In this document: positions 47,126-50,358 of the stretch, piece by piece
Position numbering within the stretch: position 1 is the first letter of the stretch
Layout: each line of letters begins with the position of its first letter
Assembly (NCBI GenBank): GCA_902576905.1
Contig: CACGWW010000001.1
Coordinates: forward strand, 185,001 to 249,000
Length of the DNA: 64,000 bases
Direction: 5' to 3'
From: an uncultured Alphaproteobacteria bacterium
Lineage (GTDB): Bacteria; Pseudomonadota; Alphaproteobacteria; Rhodobacterales; Rhodobacteraceae
Program-made: the position numbers and the translations under genes
Notes under the pieces: model-generated
Told to the model about the DNA's origin: nothing
What the model saw: only the letters and a program-made list of their open reading frames with translations
Databases searched by the model: none

Positions 47126-47974
47126 TTATTTATTCGCTGATACGTAATTGAGGCACGCCTTATACGTAATTTCGTTGCCATTTTGTCGTTGTTCACATAG
47201 TTGAATTATTTCATTTTTTATCATTGAGATTTTTGCGCTTGATAAATTTTCCTCTGATAAAATTCTTGCTCTTGGACCAATCCCCATGAGAAGTTCAGCA
47301 TCTTGCTCAGCGCTATCTTTAGTTGAGATAGATGTATAAACCTTATGTATATTGATATTTTTAAATCCAGCTGATTCTAAGACGTCGTTAATATACTCAG
47401 GGTCGCTGAATGCAAAGGGTCCTGGGTCTTTTGTTACCTCTGGAAGGACTTTTTGAGTATATTTAGTGATAATATCCATACCTTCAATTATAAACTCATT
47501 CTCCATCATATCTGTCCAACACACAAAATTTAGAGAACCACTTGTCTTCAAAGAACCATAAATATTTTTGAAGGCTTCTAAGGGACTTTCGAAAAACATT
47601 ACACCAAATCGAGATATAACTTTATCAAAGTAATTTTCATTAAAAGAAAAATTCTGAGCATCACAATGCACAAATGTCATTGTATCGATATCTGAAAATT
47701 TACTTTTTGCATGATTAAGCAAGGTGTTCGAAATATCCGCTCCAACAACATGTCCAGCATCGGCCAATAATTTTGATACTCGAAAAGTTGTATCACCACC
47801 TCCGCACCCGATATCTAAAACCTTATCCGATCCCTTTATTTTCACTCTCGAAAAAAGTTCGTCAGTTAGTATTGATAATCGCTCATTTAGTGCATCCTCA
47901 TTTTTGACCCACTTAGGCCCGGATTTTTCGTTCCAGTATTCGGATTGTTCCACGTTGATAATTTTTTGTTTCAT
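47126..47974 (-). CDS. SAM-dependent class I methyltransferase
   Basis: A 282-residue methyltransferase of the UbiE/class I type. SAM-binding motif I is VLDIGCGGGDTT near residue 54, followed by the acidic loop VVGADISN and motif IV VISRFGVMFFESP. The N-terminal WNEKSGPKWV is typical of a large bacterial group with unknown small-molecule acceptors. Its ATG overlaps the stop of the cyclase-fusion gene by 4 nt, so both proteins should be made together. Confidence 0.82.
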   Translation of the reverse strand: MKQKIINVEQSEYWNEKSGPKWVKNEDALNERLSILTDELFSRVKIKGSDKVLDIGCGGGDTTFRVSKLLADAGHVVGADISNTLLNHAKSKFSDIDTMTFVHCDAQNFSFNENYFDKVISRFGVMFFESPLEAFKNIYGSLKTSGSLNFVCWTDMMENEFIIEGMDIITKYTQKVLPEVTKDPGPFAFSDPEYINDVLESAGFKNINIHKVYTSISTKDSAEQDAELLMGIGPRARILSEENLSSAKISMIKNEIIQLCEQRQNGNEITYKACLNYVSANK

Positions 47975-49770
47975 ATCGTGACCGTCTTTAAAGGTTTCTG
48001 TATCCAGATATAGCTATCTGCTTCCTGTGTGGGAATAACCCTAAGTGGCTCACAATCTTTTTCTACTTCTTTAGGTTGTAATCCAACCCATTTTCTGACT
48101 TCACCTGATCTAAAACAAAACTCACTATTATGGTATGGGCATAAGATAGTGCCTTCATCTGTTATCTGACCTATGTCCAATGGTAAATTCATATGGGGAC
48201 ATATATTCTCAATAGCAAAGATGCCTTCCTGATTTATAAGAAGAAATTCTTTTCCATCATATTCAAACTTTTTCTTTTCTCCGACATCGAGCTCGCTAAT
48301 TGGCAAAGTCCTTATCCAAGTATTGCCATCAATCTCTTTTATTTTAATATCAGAGTGATCTATTAGCTTATCTTTATTTAGACCGCTAACCTCATGCAGG
48401 GTGATTAAGTTACTAGATCCCCTTAATTTTAATCTCACAAAATTTCTTACATCAACAGCATCTTTAATTCTTTCATAAGCAACATCGGAAATAAGAAAAC
48501 GTGTTCCCGCCTCTTTATTTATAGCTTCAATTCTACTGGCGATGTTTACAGTGTCTCCAATTATGGTAAATTTTTTGTCTTCGCCAAAACCAACAGAACC
48601 TAGAATGGCTTCACCATAATGAACACCTATTCGTATATCAAAATCTCTACCGTAAGCTTGAGACAGATAATCCTTAAACTCGTCCATAGCTTGTAGCATT
48701 TCTAACGCTGTATTTGCTGCTCTAAGTGTCTGTTGTCTTGAGTCTTTGAGACCAAAGATAGCCAGAATAGCATCTCCAATATAATTATTTATCTCCCCAC
48801 CATTTTTAATGATGATTTCGCGCATTATAGAGATGTATCTATTTAAAATGAATATCACATCATAAGCAGCAAGCGCCTCAGAAAAAGGGGTAAAACCCTT
48901 AATATCGACAAACATCACCGTCAGATTTCTTATAGTACCGACGGACTCTAGTTTCGTATCGGACAATTTATTTGAATTACTCAAATCCCTCTTGTCAAGC
49001 AGAAGTCTTCTGTACGAAACAGGTCCACTTATTGTGGTTTGGCAGGCAAGTCTTATATTTTCCGGAAAGGAAAGCTTATCCGATAGCTTTCTCTCAGCAT
49101 CTGACCTGGGAGAACAATTTTCTAATCCTTCTGTAATTTCAACTCTGCAAGTCGAGCATTTTCCAGTACCTCCGCAAGCACTTAAGTGAGATATATTGTT
49201 TCTTATTGATGCTGTGAGTATTGTTTCATTTACACCTACCTCTATTTTTTTCTTGTCAGGTTGTACTATTGCTGAAAAGAGATCTTCATCATTATAACTT
49301 TTTTCTTGTTTATTATGACTTCCATCACAGAAAGGTCTGTTTTTTGTCATTTTACATGTGCAGAAATATTTCGTTTCTGATTTTTCTGCTACATATTTTA
49401 AGGGTGTGAATTCACTGCCCGCATGACTGCCATCACAAAAAGGCTGGTTTTTACTCTTTCCACAACTACACCAAAAGTAGCTTTTATCTTTCTCGACGTC
49501 ATGAGGTATAGGTTTAAATTCCACGATTTTTGCATCCTCGAGGATTGTATCTAATTTATTGTGGCTGCCATCACAGAAAGGTTTTTTTTGTGTTTTTTTA
49601 CATGTGCAGAAATATTTCGTCTCTGTTTTTTCCGCTACATAATTTAAGGGTGCGAATTCACTGCCCGCATGACTGCCATCACAAAAAGGCTGGTTTTTAC
49701 TTCTTCCACAGCTACACCAGAAGTAGCTTTTATCTTTCTCGACGTCATGAGGTATAGGTTTAAATTTCAT
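47971..49770 (-). CDS. Multi-iron-sulfur nucleotide cyclase (CDGSH x4 - ferredoxin - cyclase - Rieske)
   Basis: A 599-residue soluble fusion. Four CDGSH (mitoNEET-type) motifs have three Cys and one His each: C19/C21/C30/H34, C55/C57/C66/H70, C101/C103/C112/H116, C137/C139/C148/H152. A plant-type [2Fe-2S] ferredoxin domain follows with C199/C205/C208 and C243. The class III cyclase domain (about 280-460) has both metal aspartates, D289 in FVDIKGFTPF and D333 in YIGDAILAIFG, Lys399/400 before FTIIGD, and the transition-state pair N409 and R413, so it should be active, more likely on ATP than GTP. A Rieske domain at the end has C524/H526 and C544/H547. Six [2Fe-2S] sites in one chain suggest that redox state controls cyclic nucleotide output. 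This order of domains is new to me. Confidence 0.9.
   Translation of the reverse strand: MKFKPIPHDVEKDKSYFWCSCGRSKNQPFCDGSHAGSEFAPLNYVAEKTETKYFCTCKKTQKKPFCDGSHNKLDTILEDAKIVEFKPIPHDVEKDKSYFWCSCGKSKNQPFCDGSHAGSEFTPLKYVAEKSETKYFCTCKMTKNRPFCDGSHNKQEKSYNDEDLFSAIVQPDKKKIEVGVNETILTASIRNNISHLSACGGTGKCSTCRVEITEGLENCSPRSDAERKLSDKLSFPENIRLACQTTISGPVSYRRLLLDKRDLSNSNKLSDTKLESVGTIRNLTVMFVDIKGFTPFSEALAAYDVIFILNRYISIMREIIIKNGGEINNYIGDAILAIFGLKDSRQQTLRAANTALEMLQAMDEFKDYLSQAYGRDFDIRIGVHYGEAILGSVGFGEDKKFTIIGDTVNIASRIEAINKEAGTRFLISDVAYERIKDAVDVRNFVRLKLRGSSNLITLHEVSGLNKDKLIDHSDIKIKEIDGNTWIRTLPISELDVGEKKKFEYDGKEFLLINQEGIFAIENICPHMNLPLDIGQITDEGTILCPYHNSEFCFRSGEVRKWVGLQPKEVEKDCEPLRVIPTQEADSYIWIQKPLKTVTI
49309..49770 (-). 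repeat. Tandem duplication inside the CDGSH region
   Basis: Bases 49555-49770 and 49309-49524 are near-identical copies 246 nt (82 codons) apart, each coding for a pair of CDGSH motifs. The most conserved parts, such as 49640-49760 against 49394-49514, differ at few positions, so the duplication is recent or is being homogenised. Confidence 0.9.
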
Positions 49771-49794: not shown

Positions 49795-50196
49795 CTAATC
49801 TCTTTTTACCTTTTTGACAACAATTCTGTATCGCGAATCAAATGCTTTTTTTTCAGAATTAACTATTAAATACTTAACCTGACCGGAATTAATTGAAAAT
49901 CTTATATTCGTTCCCAGAAATTTACGATATTCCACATCGTCCCTGATAGTTAGCGTGTATCGACCTTGGATTAACCTTTTCTTGATAATCTGATTTTCTC
50001 CTAGCATCCCCAAGACTTTACCATTCAAAATAACTGTAAAACGGCCAAACATGCCCGGTATTCCAGTGGAACGGCCAAGTACAAGTGTACCGTGATCAGA
50101 GGCTTTGGAAGCAACATTTAATACCTGGGGAGAGGCTCCAACATCGCACGAGACCAAAAGAAAAATCAGCGTGAATATTTGAAACAGCCTTACCAT
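49795..50196 (-). CDS. Putative lipoprotein of unknown function
   Basis: From the ATG at 50196 the product has 133 residues. It opens with a short signal peptide and lipobox (IFLLVSCD), so a lipid-anchored periplasmic protein is likely. The rest is a beta-rich domain (GRFTVILNGKVLGML, GRYTLTIRDDVEYR, YLIVNSEKK) like the DUF2846-type lipoproteins, which I cannot assign with certainty. A TTG at 50220 is an alternative start that makes a poorer signal peptide. It lies 24 nt upstream of the cyclase-fusion gene in the same direction and may share its transcript. Confidence 0.65.
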   Translation of the reverse strand: MVRLFQIFTLIFLLVSCDVGASPQVLNVASKASDHGTLVLGRSTGIPGMFGRFTVILNGKVLGMLGENQIIKKRLIQGRYTLTIRDDVEYRKFLGTNIRFSINSGQVKYLIVNSEKKAFDSRYRIVVKKVKRD

Positions 50197-50358
50197 TTCT
50201 CTAATATAGTTTTTTGCCAAGAAAAGAAAAAGTTCACTAATTGTATAACAGTTAATAAAGCCTATTTAGGCGAATTTTCATCAGGAATTTTGTAAAAAAA
50301 TAATTTTCAATTTTTCACTCGCACCGCTATCTAGATCAGCACTGACGAGGATGAGATA

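Follow-up and report, generated by a model that had tools for sequence, protein, structure and literature searches.

In the accessible part of PMC4821796, 30 class IIIb nucleotide cyclases are described in which a ferredoxin domain lies between a cytochrome-b-like six-transmembrane (6TM) anchor, predicted to hold two hemes, and the cyclase domain; Rhodopseudomonas palustris Q132R4 is an example from cluster 1. By annotation and domain scan, S. meliloti CyaC has a ferredoxin (Fer2)-cyclase make-up. CyaC is reportedly redox-regulated via a diheme anchor. A class III cyclase can also be switched by a metal-binding C-terminal domain, as the available text of PMC4626032 describes for the YHS-domain adenylyl cyclase of Mycobacterium phlei. 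Type 6 CISD proteins are defined by a pair of CDGSH motifs with about 20 residues between them (PMC3174974, in the part available), and the CDGSH partners named in the accessible part of PMC5859297 are Cyt-b5, thioredoxin, Fer4_19, Glu_synthase, ferritin-like, Rieske and Rieske_2, with no cyclase among them. Here, we describe a gene that brings these elements together, found in a 64,000-nucleotide stretch of an uncultured alphaproteobacterium (contig CACGWW010000001.1; the whole stretch is hereafter called the window). The gene (47971..49770, minus strand) encodes a 599-residue protein in which two CDGSH pairs, a Fer2 domain, a class III cyclase domain and a Rieske domain follow one another. 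The fusion is genuine and conserved, and its product is probably a soluble cytoplasmic cyclase controlled by iron-sulfur (Fe-S) clusters, with Fer2 as the gate and the CDGSH and Rieske domains as added inputs.

The open reading frame starts with ATG and contains no internal stops. Each component that the first-pass annotation had assigned to the chain scored above its Pfam cut-off: zf-CDGSH in four stretches (121.4 bits, cut-off 29.5), Fer2 at residues 169-247 (41.3 bits, cut-off 21), Guanylate_cyc at residues 280-453 (90.2 bits, cut-off 21.9) and Rieske at residues 485-561 (54.4 bits, cut-off 20.3); 16 NCBIfam component-family matches all fell under their own cut-offs. All features lie on the minus strand. 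The first CDGSH pair (residues 3-75, 49546..49764), an extra copy, has motifs at residues 19-34 and 55-70, and the second (residues 85-157, 49300..49518), which adjoins Fer2, has motifs at residues 101-116 and 137-152. Fer2 (49030..49266) is followed by a linker (residues 248-279, 48934..49029), a candidate signal transducer, in which L256, D262 and G278 are invariant and R254 and R255 almost so in a 10-row alignment. The cyclase domain occupies 48412..48933 and the Rieske domain 48088..48318. Ligands are present for all six predicted [2Fe-2S] sites, including C199, C205, C208 and C243 in Fer2 and, in the Rieske domain, the pairs C524-P-H526 (C-x-H) and C544-P-Y-H547 (C-x2-H) of a Rieske ferredoxin. 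A hydropathy scan of the 599 residues found no hydrophobic or membrane segment, so the protein lacks the six-transmembrane anchor of the described Fer2-cyclases.

Comparison with solved structures placed each module. The best solved match of the CDGSH pair, over residues 84-153, is the type 6 MmCISD of Magnetospirillum (3tbn), and 20 residues separate the motifs in each pair, which is the tandem spacing of type 6 CISD proteins. The nearest solved relatives of the Rieske region are oxygenase ferredoxin subunits (8jng, 3gce and 2e4p), and CyaB (3r5g) and the adenylate cyclases 2w01 and 1wc1 are among the best matches of the cyclase domain. Plant-type ferredoxins have the spacing C-x4-C-x2-C. The Fer2 domain had been called plant-type, and while it is a ferredoxin domain, that label proved loose: its spacing is C-x5-C-x2-C, followed by C243, and its solved relatives include adrenodoxin, putidaredoxin and other Isc/adrenodoxin-type ferredoxins, NqrF and the PnsB3 subunit.

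Orthologs scoring above 1000 bits occur in 13 of the 22 genomes of the window's genus, all drafts (completeness 58-91%). Eleven of the 13 show the layout in full; the remaining two are cut at contig ends, one before the CDGSH part (G019) and one inside the Rieske domain (G011). Relatives were found at 13 loci of uncultured Alphaproteobacteria or TMED198, with best-segment identities of 78-99%, together with one distant cyclase. Beyond the genus, the layout appears in one more genus of the family (L081 in genome G325, from a draw of 295 family genomes), where Fer2 scores 20.4 bits, just below the cut-off, and one Fer2 cysteine codon is ambiguous. It also appears in another alphaproteobacterial family: a draw of 385 class genomes yielded one genome (G569, locus L089), and a second genome of that genus carries it as well (G696, locus L124), making two of the three genomes of the genus and two of the ten of the family. 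A draw of 390 genomes of the order (E 1e-65) matched the window genome alone, and one of 398 genomes of the phylum (E 1e-60) matched 15 genomes, with no further full layout by matched range. These draws overlap, used strict E-values, scored at most three or four candidates per genome and give loci for part of the matches, such that the layout counts are lower bounds and the layout is perhaps commoner. Among plasmid records, none of 497 matches covered 80% of the query, and no relative was present among 41 pattern matches in viral contigs. As a separate observation, plasmid pRsp8C3c of Rhizobium etli 8C-3 encodes a Fer2-cyclase-Rieske protein (L150:2983-4359) with 37.1% identity over residues 171-590, and an R. 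gallicum plasmid record, known from its match alone, has a similar match.

Sequence divergence points to selection on the gene. Between the window gene and L040, nonsynonymous divergence (dN) over residues 84-592 is 0.0226 against a synonymous divergence (dS) of 0.32, and between L089 and L124 the values over all domains are 0.072 and 0.70; synonymous sites are close to saturation in the more distant pairs. With dN far below dS, the CDGSH-Fer2-cyclase-Rieske fusion is confirmed as genuine and conserved.

To place these proteins within the wider family we used a tree of 51 Fer2-cyclase cores, from which 14 of 65 rows (same-genus near-copies or contig-cut sequences) had been dropped. The 13 CDGSH-bearing rows form a single clade (99/97), which is joined by L082, a Fer2-cyclase-Rieske protein (99/94), and all Rieske-bearing rows fall, with the Fer2-cyclase L090, in a single clade (95/95). 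The Rieske-bearing clade excludes the short soluble Fer2-cyclases (about 310 residues), and long forms lie across the midpoint root. All 31 long Fer2-cyclases scanned have 3-8 hydrophobic segments; the other 33 rows scanned (CDGSH-bearing, Rieske-only and short) have none, save one short row with a single segment. In this tree, Fer2 directly before the cyclase is the only arrangement common to the wider family, the Rieske and CDGSH domains being additions in nested groups. The simplest reading is that a soluble Fer2-cyclase gained a Rieske domain, lost or never gained in L090, and later a CDGSH pair; this order is provisional because the tree checks flagged long branches, L082 among them, as well as joins that may be false. 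The short forms (L126-L137 and L151) come from family f188, outside the class, and from Hymenobacter (Bacteroidota).

The count of four CDGSH motifs reported by the first-pass annotation is real in the window protein but is not a fixed property of the family. Four motifs occur in eight of the 13 genus orthologs and two motifs in four, while the contig of the thirteenth (G019) ends before the CDGSH part; two motifs are also found in TMED198, G325, G569 and G696. The four-motif state is probably derived, since a single pair is what those four genus orthologs and the two genomes of the other family carry. It stems from tandem duplication of one pair and differs between close orthologs: the within-protein copies share 89.5-97.6% DNA identity in eight proteins, and 91.0% in the window gene (49300-49764). 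The duplicated stretch in L044 (L044:8019-9860) also includes part of the beginning of Fer2, and its two copies group within L044's own sub-lineage, which suggests two or more separate duplications. The main lineage shows no clean split between first and second copies; there, L039 and L045 contribute four copies that cluster with weak support (83), so that copies may be evolving in concert. A repeat of this kind could be concealed or collapsed in draft assemblies, and the exact number of pairs in a given draft could be mis-assembled.

We next consider the catalytic core, using 71 aligned rows: 17 CDGSH-bearing (among which the window protein appears twice and one row has an ambiguous base at C205), eight sorted as Rieske-only (one of them the G019 ortholog cut at its contig end), 14 short and 32 anchored. 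Short and anchored rows were sorted by length, and the anchor was checked afterwards in 31 of the 32, the S. meliloti row standing outside that scan. The metal-binding aspartates D289 and D333 and the transition-state residues N409 and R413 are invariant in all 71 rows, as are the Fer2 cysteines apart from that ambiguous base. We take the roles of these positions, and of the position equivalent to N329, to be those generally assigned in class III cyclases. The accessible parts of PMC4215837 and PMC4886424 state them in part. N329 aligns with the purine-contacting Lys of CyaB (3r5g), so the adenine-contacting Lys that marks ATP specificity is absent here. This position is Asn in 17/17 CDGSH-bearing rows and Lys in 32/32 anchored rows; the eight rows sorted as Rieske-only have Asn in three, Lys in three and Leu in two (two, three and two of seven without G019), and the short rows have Asp in eight, Lys in five and Asn in one. 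A candidate statement that only the CDGSH clade and L082 lacked the purine Lys was rejected on this count, which shows variation among soluble Fer2-cyclases. Thr at the second purine position marks class IIIb cyclases. Position 402 is Thr in all 17 CDGSH-bearing and all 32 anchored rows, in seven Rieske-only rows (Ser in the eighth) and in seven short rows (Ala in the other seven). The cyclase had been described as apparently intact, which holds for its metal and transition-state residues but not for its purine Lys. From these residues, cyclase activity of the CDGSH-bearing protein is likely, but ATP as substrate and cyclic AMP (cAMP) as product are not assured, because the purine-contacting Lys is replaced by Asn.

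We therefore favor, as the probable reading, a cyclase gated by Fer2. Because the published class IIIb cyclases have ferredoxin between a cytochrome-b-like anchor and the cyclase, redox control through Fer2 would be, by analogy, the best prior for the whole Fer2-cyclase family. The conserved core is Fer2 joined through a short linker to the cyclase. Whether the Fer2 cluster is oxidized or reduced, or present at all, would determine the arrangement of the cyclase dimer and thereby its activity. Anchored relatives would feed electrons to Fer2 through their membrane cytochrome b. Since the anchor is absent here and the core is flanked by CDGSH pairs on its N-terminal side and a Rieske domain on its C-terminal side, the inputs are probably cytosolic: Rieske or CDGSH would be acted on by electron carriers or by reductants, or clusters would be lost and supplied at the CDGSH sites. 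The output would be a cyclic nucleotide, perhaps read by cyclic-nucleotide-monophosphate (cNMP)-binding proteins, four of which are encoded in the draft genome. We infer cluster loading, gating, the direction of the response, the substrate and the reader. The earlier proposal of a redox relay or iron/oxygen sensor with cyclic-nucleotide output is thus supported in part: the architecture is genuine, and a sensor of redox or Fe-S state that acts through a cyclase fits the published Fer2-linked class IIIb cyclases, whereas an electron relay between the clusters is a candidate feature and cAMP as the output is not certain given N329. For the window genome (G000) we counted 15 class III cyclase matches against four cNMP_binding matches, the latter in frames of 132-157 residues.

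Several observations weigh against this reading of Fer2-gated control. The ortholog is missing from nine of the 22 genus genomes, including the two most complete, both at least 90% complete (G001 and G007), and the gene's function is for this reason accessory. The comparison of neighbors across 18 loci, 14 with the CDGSH form and four without, found none common to distant orthologs; as no neighbor is common to all lineages, the gene seems to act alone. The uniform Asn at position 329 of the CDGSH-bearing rows belongs here too, since substitution of purine-site residues often diminished cyclase activity (PMC4215837, in the part available). The near-identical pair of window and L051 is uninformative, with a Fer2 dN of 0.009 and a dS of 0. 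Finally, an AlphaFold model built from a 17-row alignment reached a mean pLDDT of 42.2, too poor for cluster-to-cluster distances, and was left unused.

A broader version of Fer2-gated control, which we regard as possible yet tentative, is that CDGSH, Fer2 and Rieske, three chemically distinct kinds of [2Fe-2S] site, are all read at once by one soluble integrating sensor, with an output that is possibly not cAMP and with the CDGSH number tuned by duplication. If so, the protein would convert cell-wide Fe-S and redox status into a second messenger. Somewhat more doubtful is a sensor of Fe-S supply, iron or oxidants, in which the CDGSH pairs, and perhaps Rieske, lose and gain clusters, and cyclase activity would follow the change between apo and holo forms instead of electron flow. 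Such chemistry has a model in the human NEET proteins, which when oxidized can pass their CDGSH cluster to apo-acceptors and when reduced retain it (PMC8463382, in the part available). The variable number of CDGSH pairs among close orthologs would likewise be easier to reconcile with a role in titration or supply than with an indispensable relay step. Nevertheless, electron transfer is the typical role of Fer2 and Rieske domains, the closest solved relatives of the Rieske domain are ferredoxin subunits of oxygenases, and no iron-regulated or Fe-S assembly gene appeared among 16 scanned neighbor proteins, a part of the neighboring open reading frames.

Compatible with either mode of sensing, though unlikely, is an altered substrate, with the CDGSH-bearing clade producing some cyclic nucleotide that is not cAMP, such as cyclic GMP, and Fe-S control retained. 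The contrast at position 329 between the CDGSH-bearing and the anchored rows would favor it, as would the gene order in genus g505, of another family: in both carrying loci (L119:7740-12283 and L138:1423-4901) the gene stands on the same strand between guaB (IMP dehydrogenase) and guaA (GMP synthase), with gaps to them within about 35 bases and guaA contig-cut in L138. This linkage was observed in a single genus; 13 further loci, including three from the window's genus (L040, L049 and L051), gave no match to guaA or guaB. Moreover, guanylyl cyclases usually have Glu, not Asn, at the purine-Lys position (PMC4215837, accessible part), a position that is loose in soluble relatives generally, where Lys, Asn, Leu or Asp is found.

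That the protein is an electron-transfer scaffold whose degenerate cyclase domain is structural only is highly improbable. Loss of the purine-contacting Lys would fit it, but both metal aspartates and the Asn/Arg pair are retained throughout the 71 rows, and of the four domains it is the cyclase that shows the lowest dN when the window is compared with L040, L049, L081 and L089. Against L040, dN and dS are 0.0046 and 0.35 for the cyclase, 0.013 and 0.28 for Rieske, 0.026 and 0.37 for Fer2 and 0.032 and 0.18 for the CDGSH pair; between L089 and L124 the cyclase ranks second lowest (0.042; Fer2, 0.034). This low dN makes degeneracy unlikely. An assembly or gene-prediction artefact, suggested by the draft state of the genome (46 contigs, 1.69 Mb, 77% complete) and by the internal repeat, can be rejected for the fusion with near certainty, since separately recorded genomes of the genus, another genus and another family carry the same layout, with dN well below dS.

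The surroundings of the gene follow lineage. Downstream, an S-adenosylmethionine (SAM) methyltransferase gene (47126..47974, minus strand) overlaps its end by 4 bases; it is present in seven of the nine main-lineage loci with a downstream gene in view and not in other lineages, and the adjacency is probably incidental. An enoyl-CoA hydratase-like gene stands there instead at loci L050 and L039 (the L050 copy was scanned, and the L039 copy belongs to the same cluster). Upstream lies a small open reading frame (49795..50220, minus strand) with a weak DUF2846 match below cut-off, which recurs in all eight main-lineage loci with that side in view and not in other lineages. The sub-lineage of L044, L047 and L049 has a different context, including an anchored Fer2-cyclase about 1 kb upstream. 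These second Fer2-cyclase genes lie at L044:5286-6965, L047:5286-6965 and L049:5265-6965, with domains and anchor checked in the L049 copy. The window's genus thus also encodes anchored Fer2-cyclases, the L049 paralog and L078.

If Fer2-gated control holds, the gene would provide a compact switch from redox or Fe-S state to a second messenger, within one soluble protein, in uncultured alphaproteobacteria that we presume, from isolate names, to be marine. By tying CDGSH domains to a measurable enzyme, the fusion opens what they sense to a simple cyclase assay, and a CDGSH-free sister form occurs in a named strain, that of R. etli. The first-pass annotation knew of no described system with this layout, and we likewise found no description of it in the titles and abstract openings of the open-access literature, subscription papers and domain-architecture databases being outside that scope. 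No open-access paper was found to combine CDGSH with adenylate cyclase, ferredoxin and Rieske; the main text of the CDGSH surveys PMC5859297 and PMC3174974 nowhere contains the word "cyclase", and no cyclase figures in the accessible part of PMC1949818.

Set beside the known systems, the window protein shares with M. phlei's YHS-domain cyclase a class III cyclase with a C-terminal candidate metal-binding sensor, but that enzyme is class IIIc and has a copper-responsive YHS domain and no Fe-S cluster (PMC4626032, accessible part). Its CDGSH pairs have the motif spacing of type 6 CISD proteins such as MmCISD (3tbn), which unlike it are small and stand-alone, and its Rieske region matches oxygenase subunits that are, by name, separate ferredoxins and not fused to a cyclase. 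The soluble Fer2-cyclase-Rieske proteins (L150, L082, L083, L084, L125, L148 and L149), for which we found no description in the open-access literature, have the same order of these three domains but no CDGSH and vary at the purine position (Asn in two, Lys in three and Leu in two of the seven). With the 6TM-ferredoxin class IIIb cyclases it shares Fer2 directly before the cyclase and the same metal, Thr and transition-state residues; it differs from them in having no anchor, in carrying CDGSH pairs and a Rieske domain, and in having Asn for the purine Lys. The window protein therefore belongs with the known Fer2-linked class III cyclases, and its unusual load of Fe-S modules is the new part, not a new kind of system.

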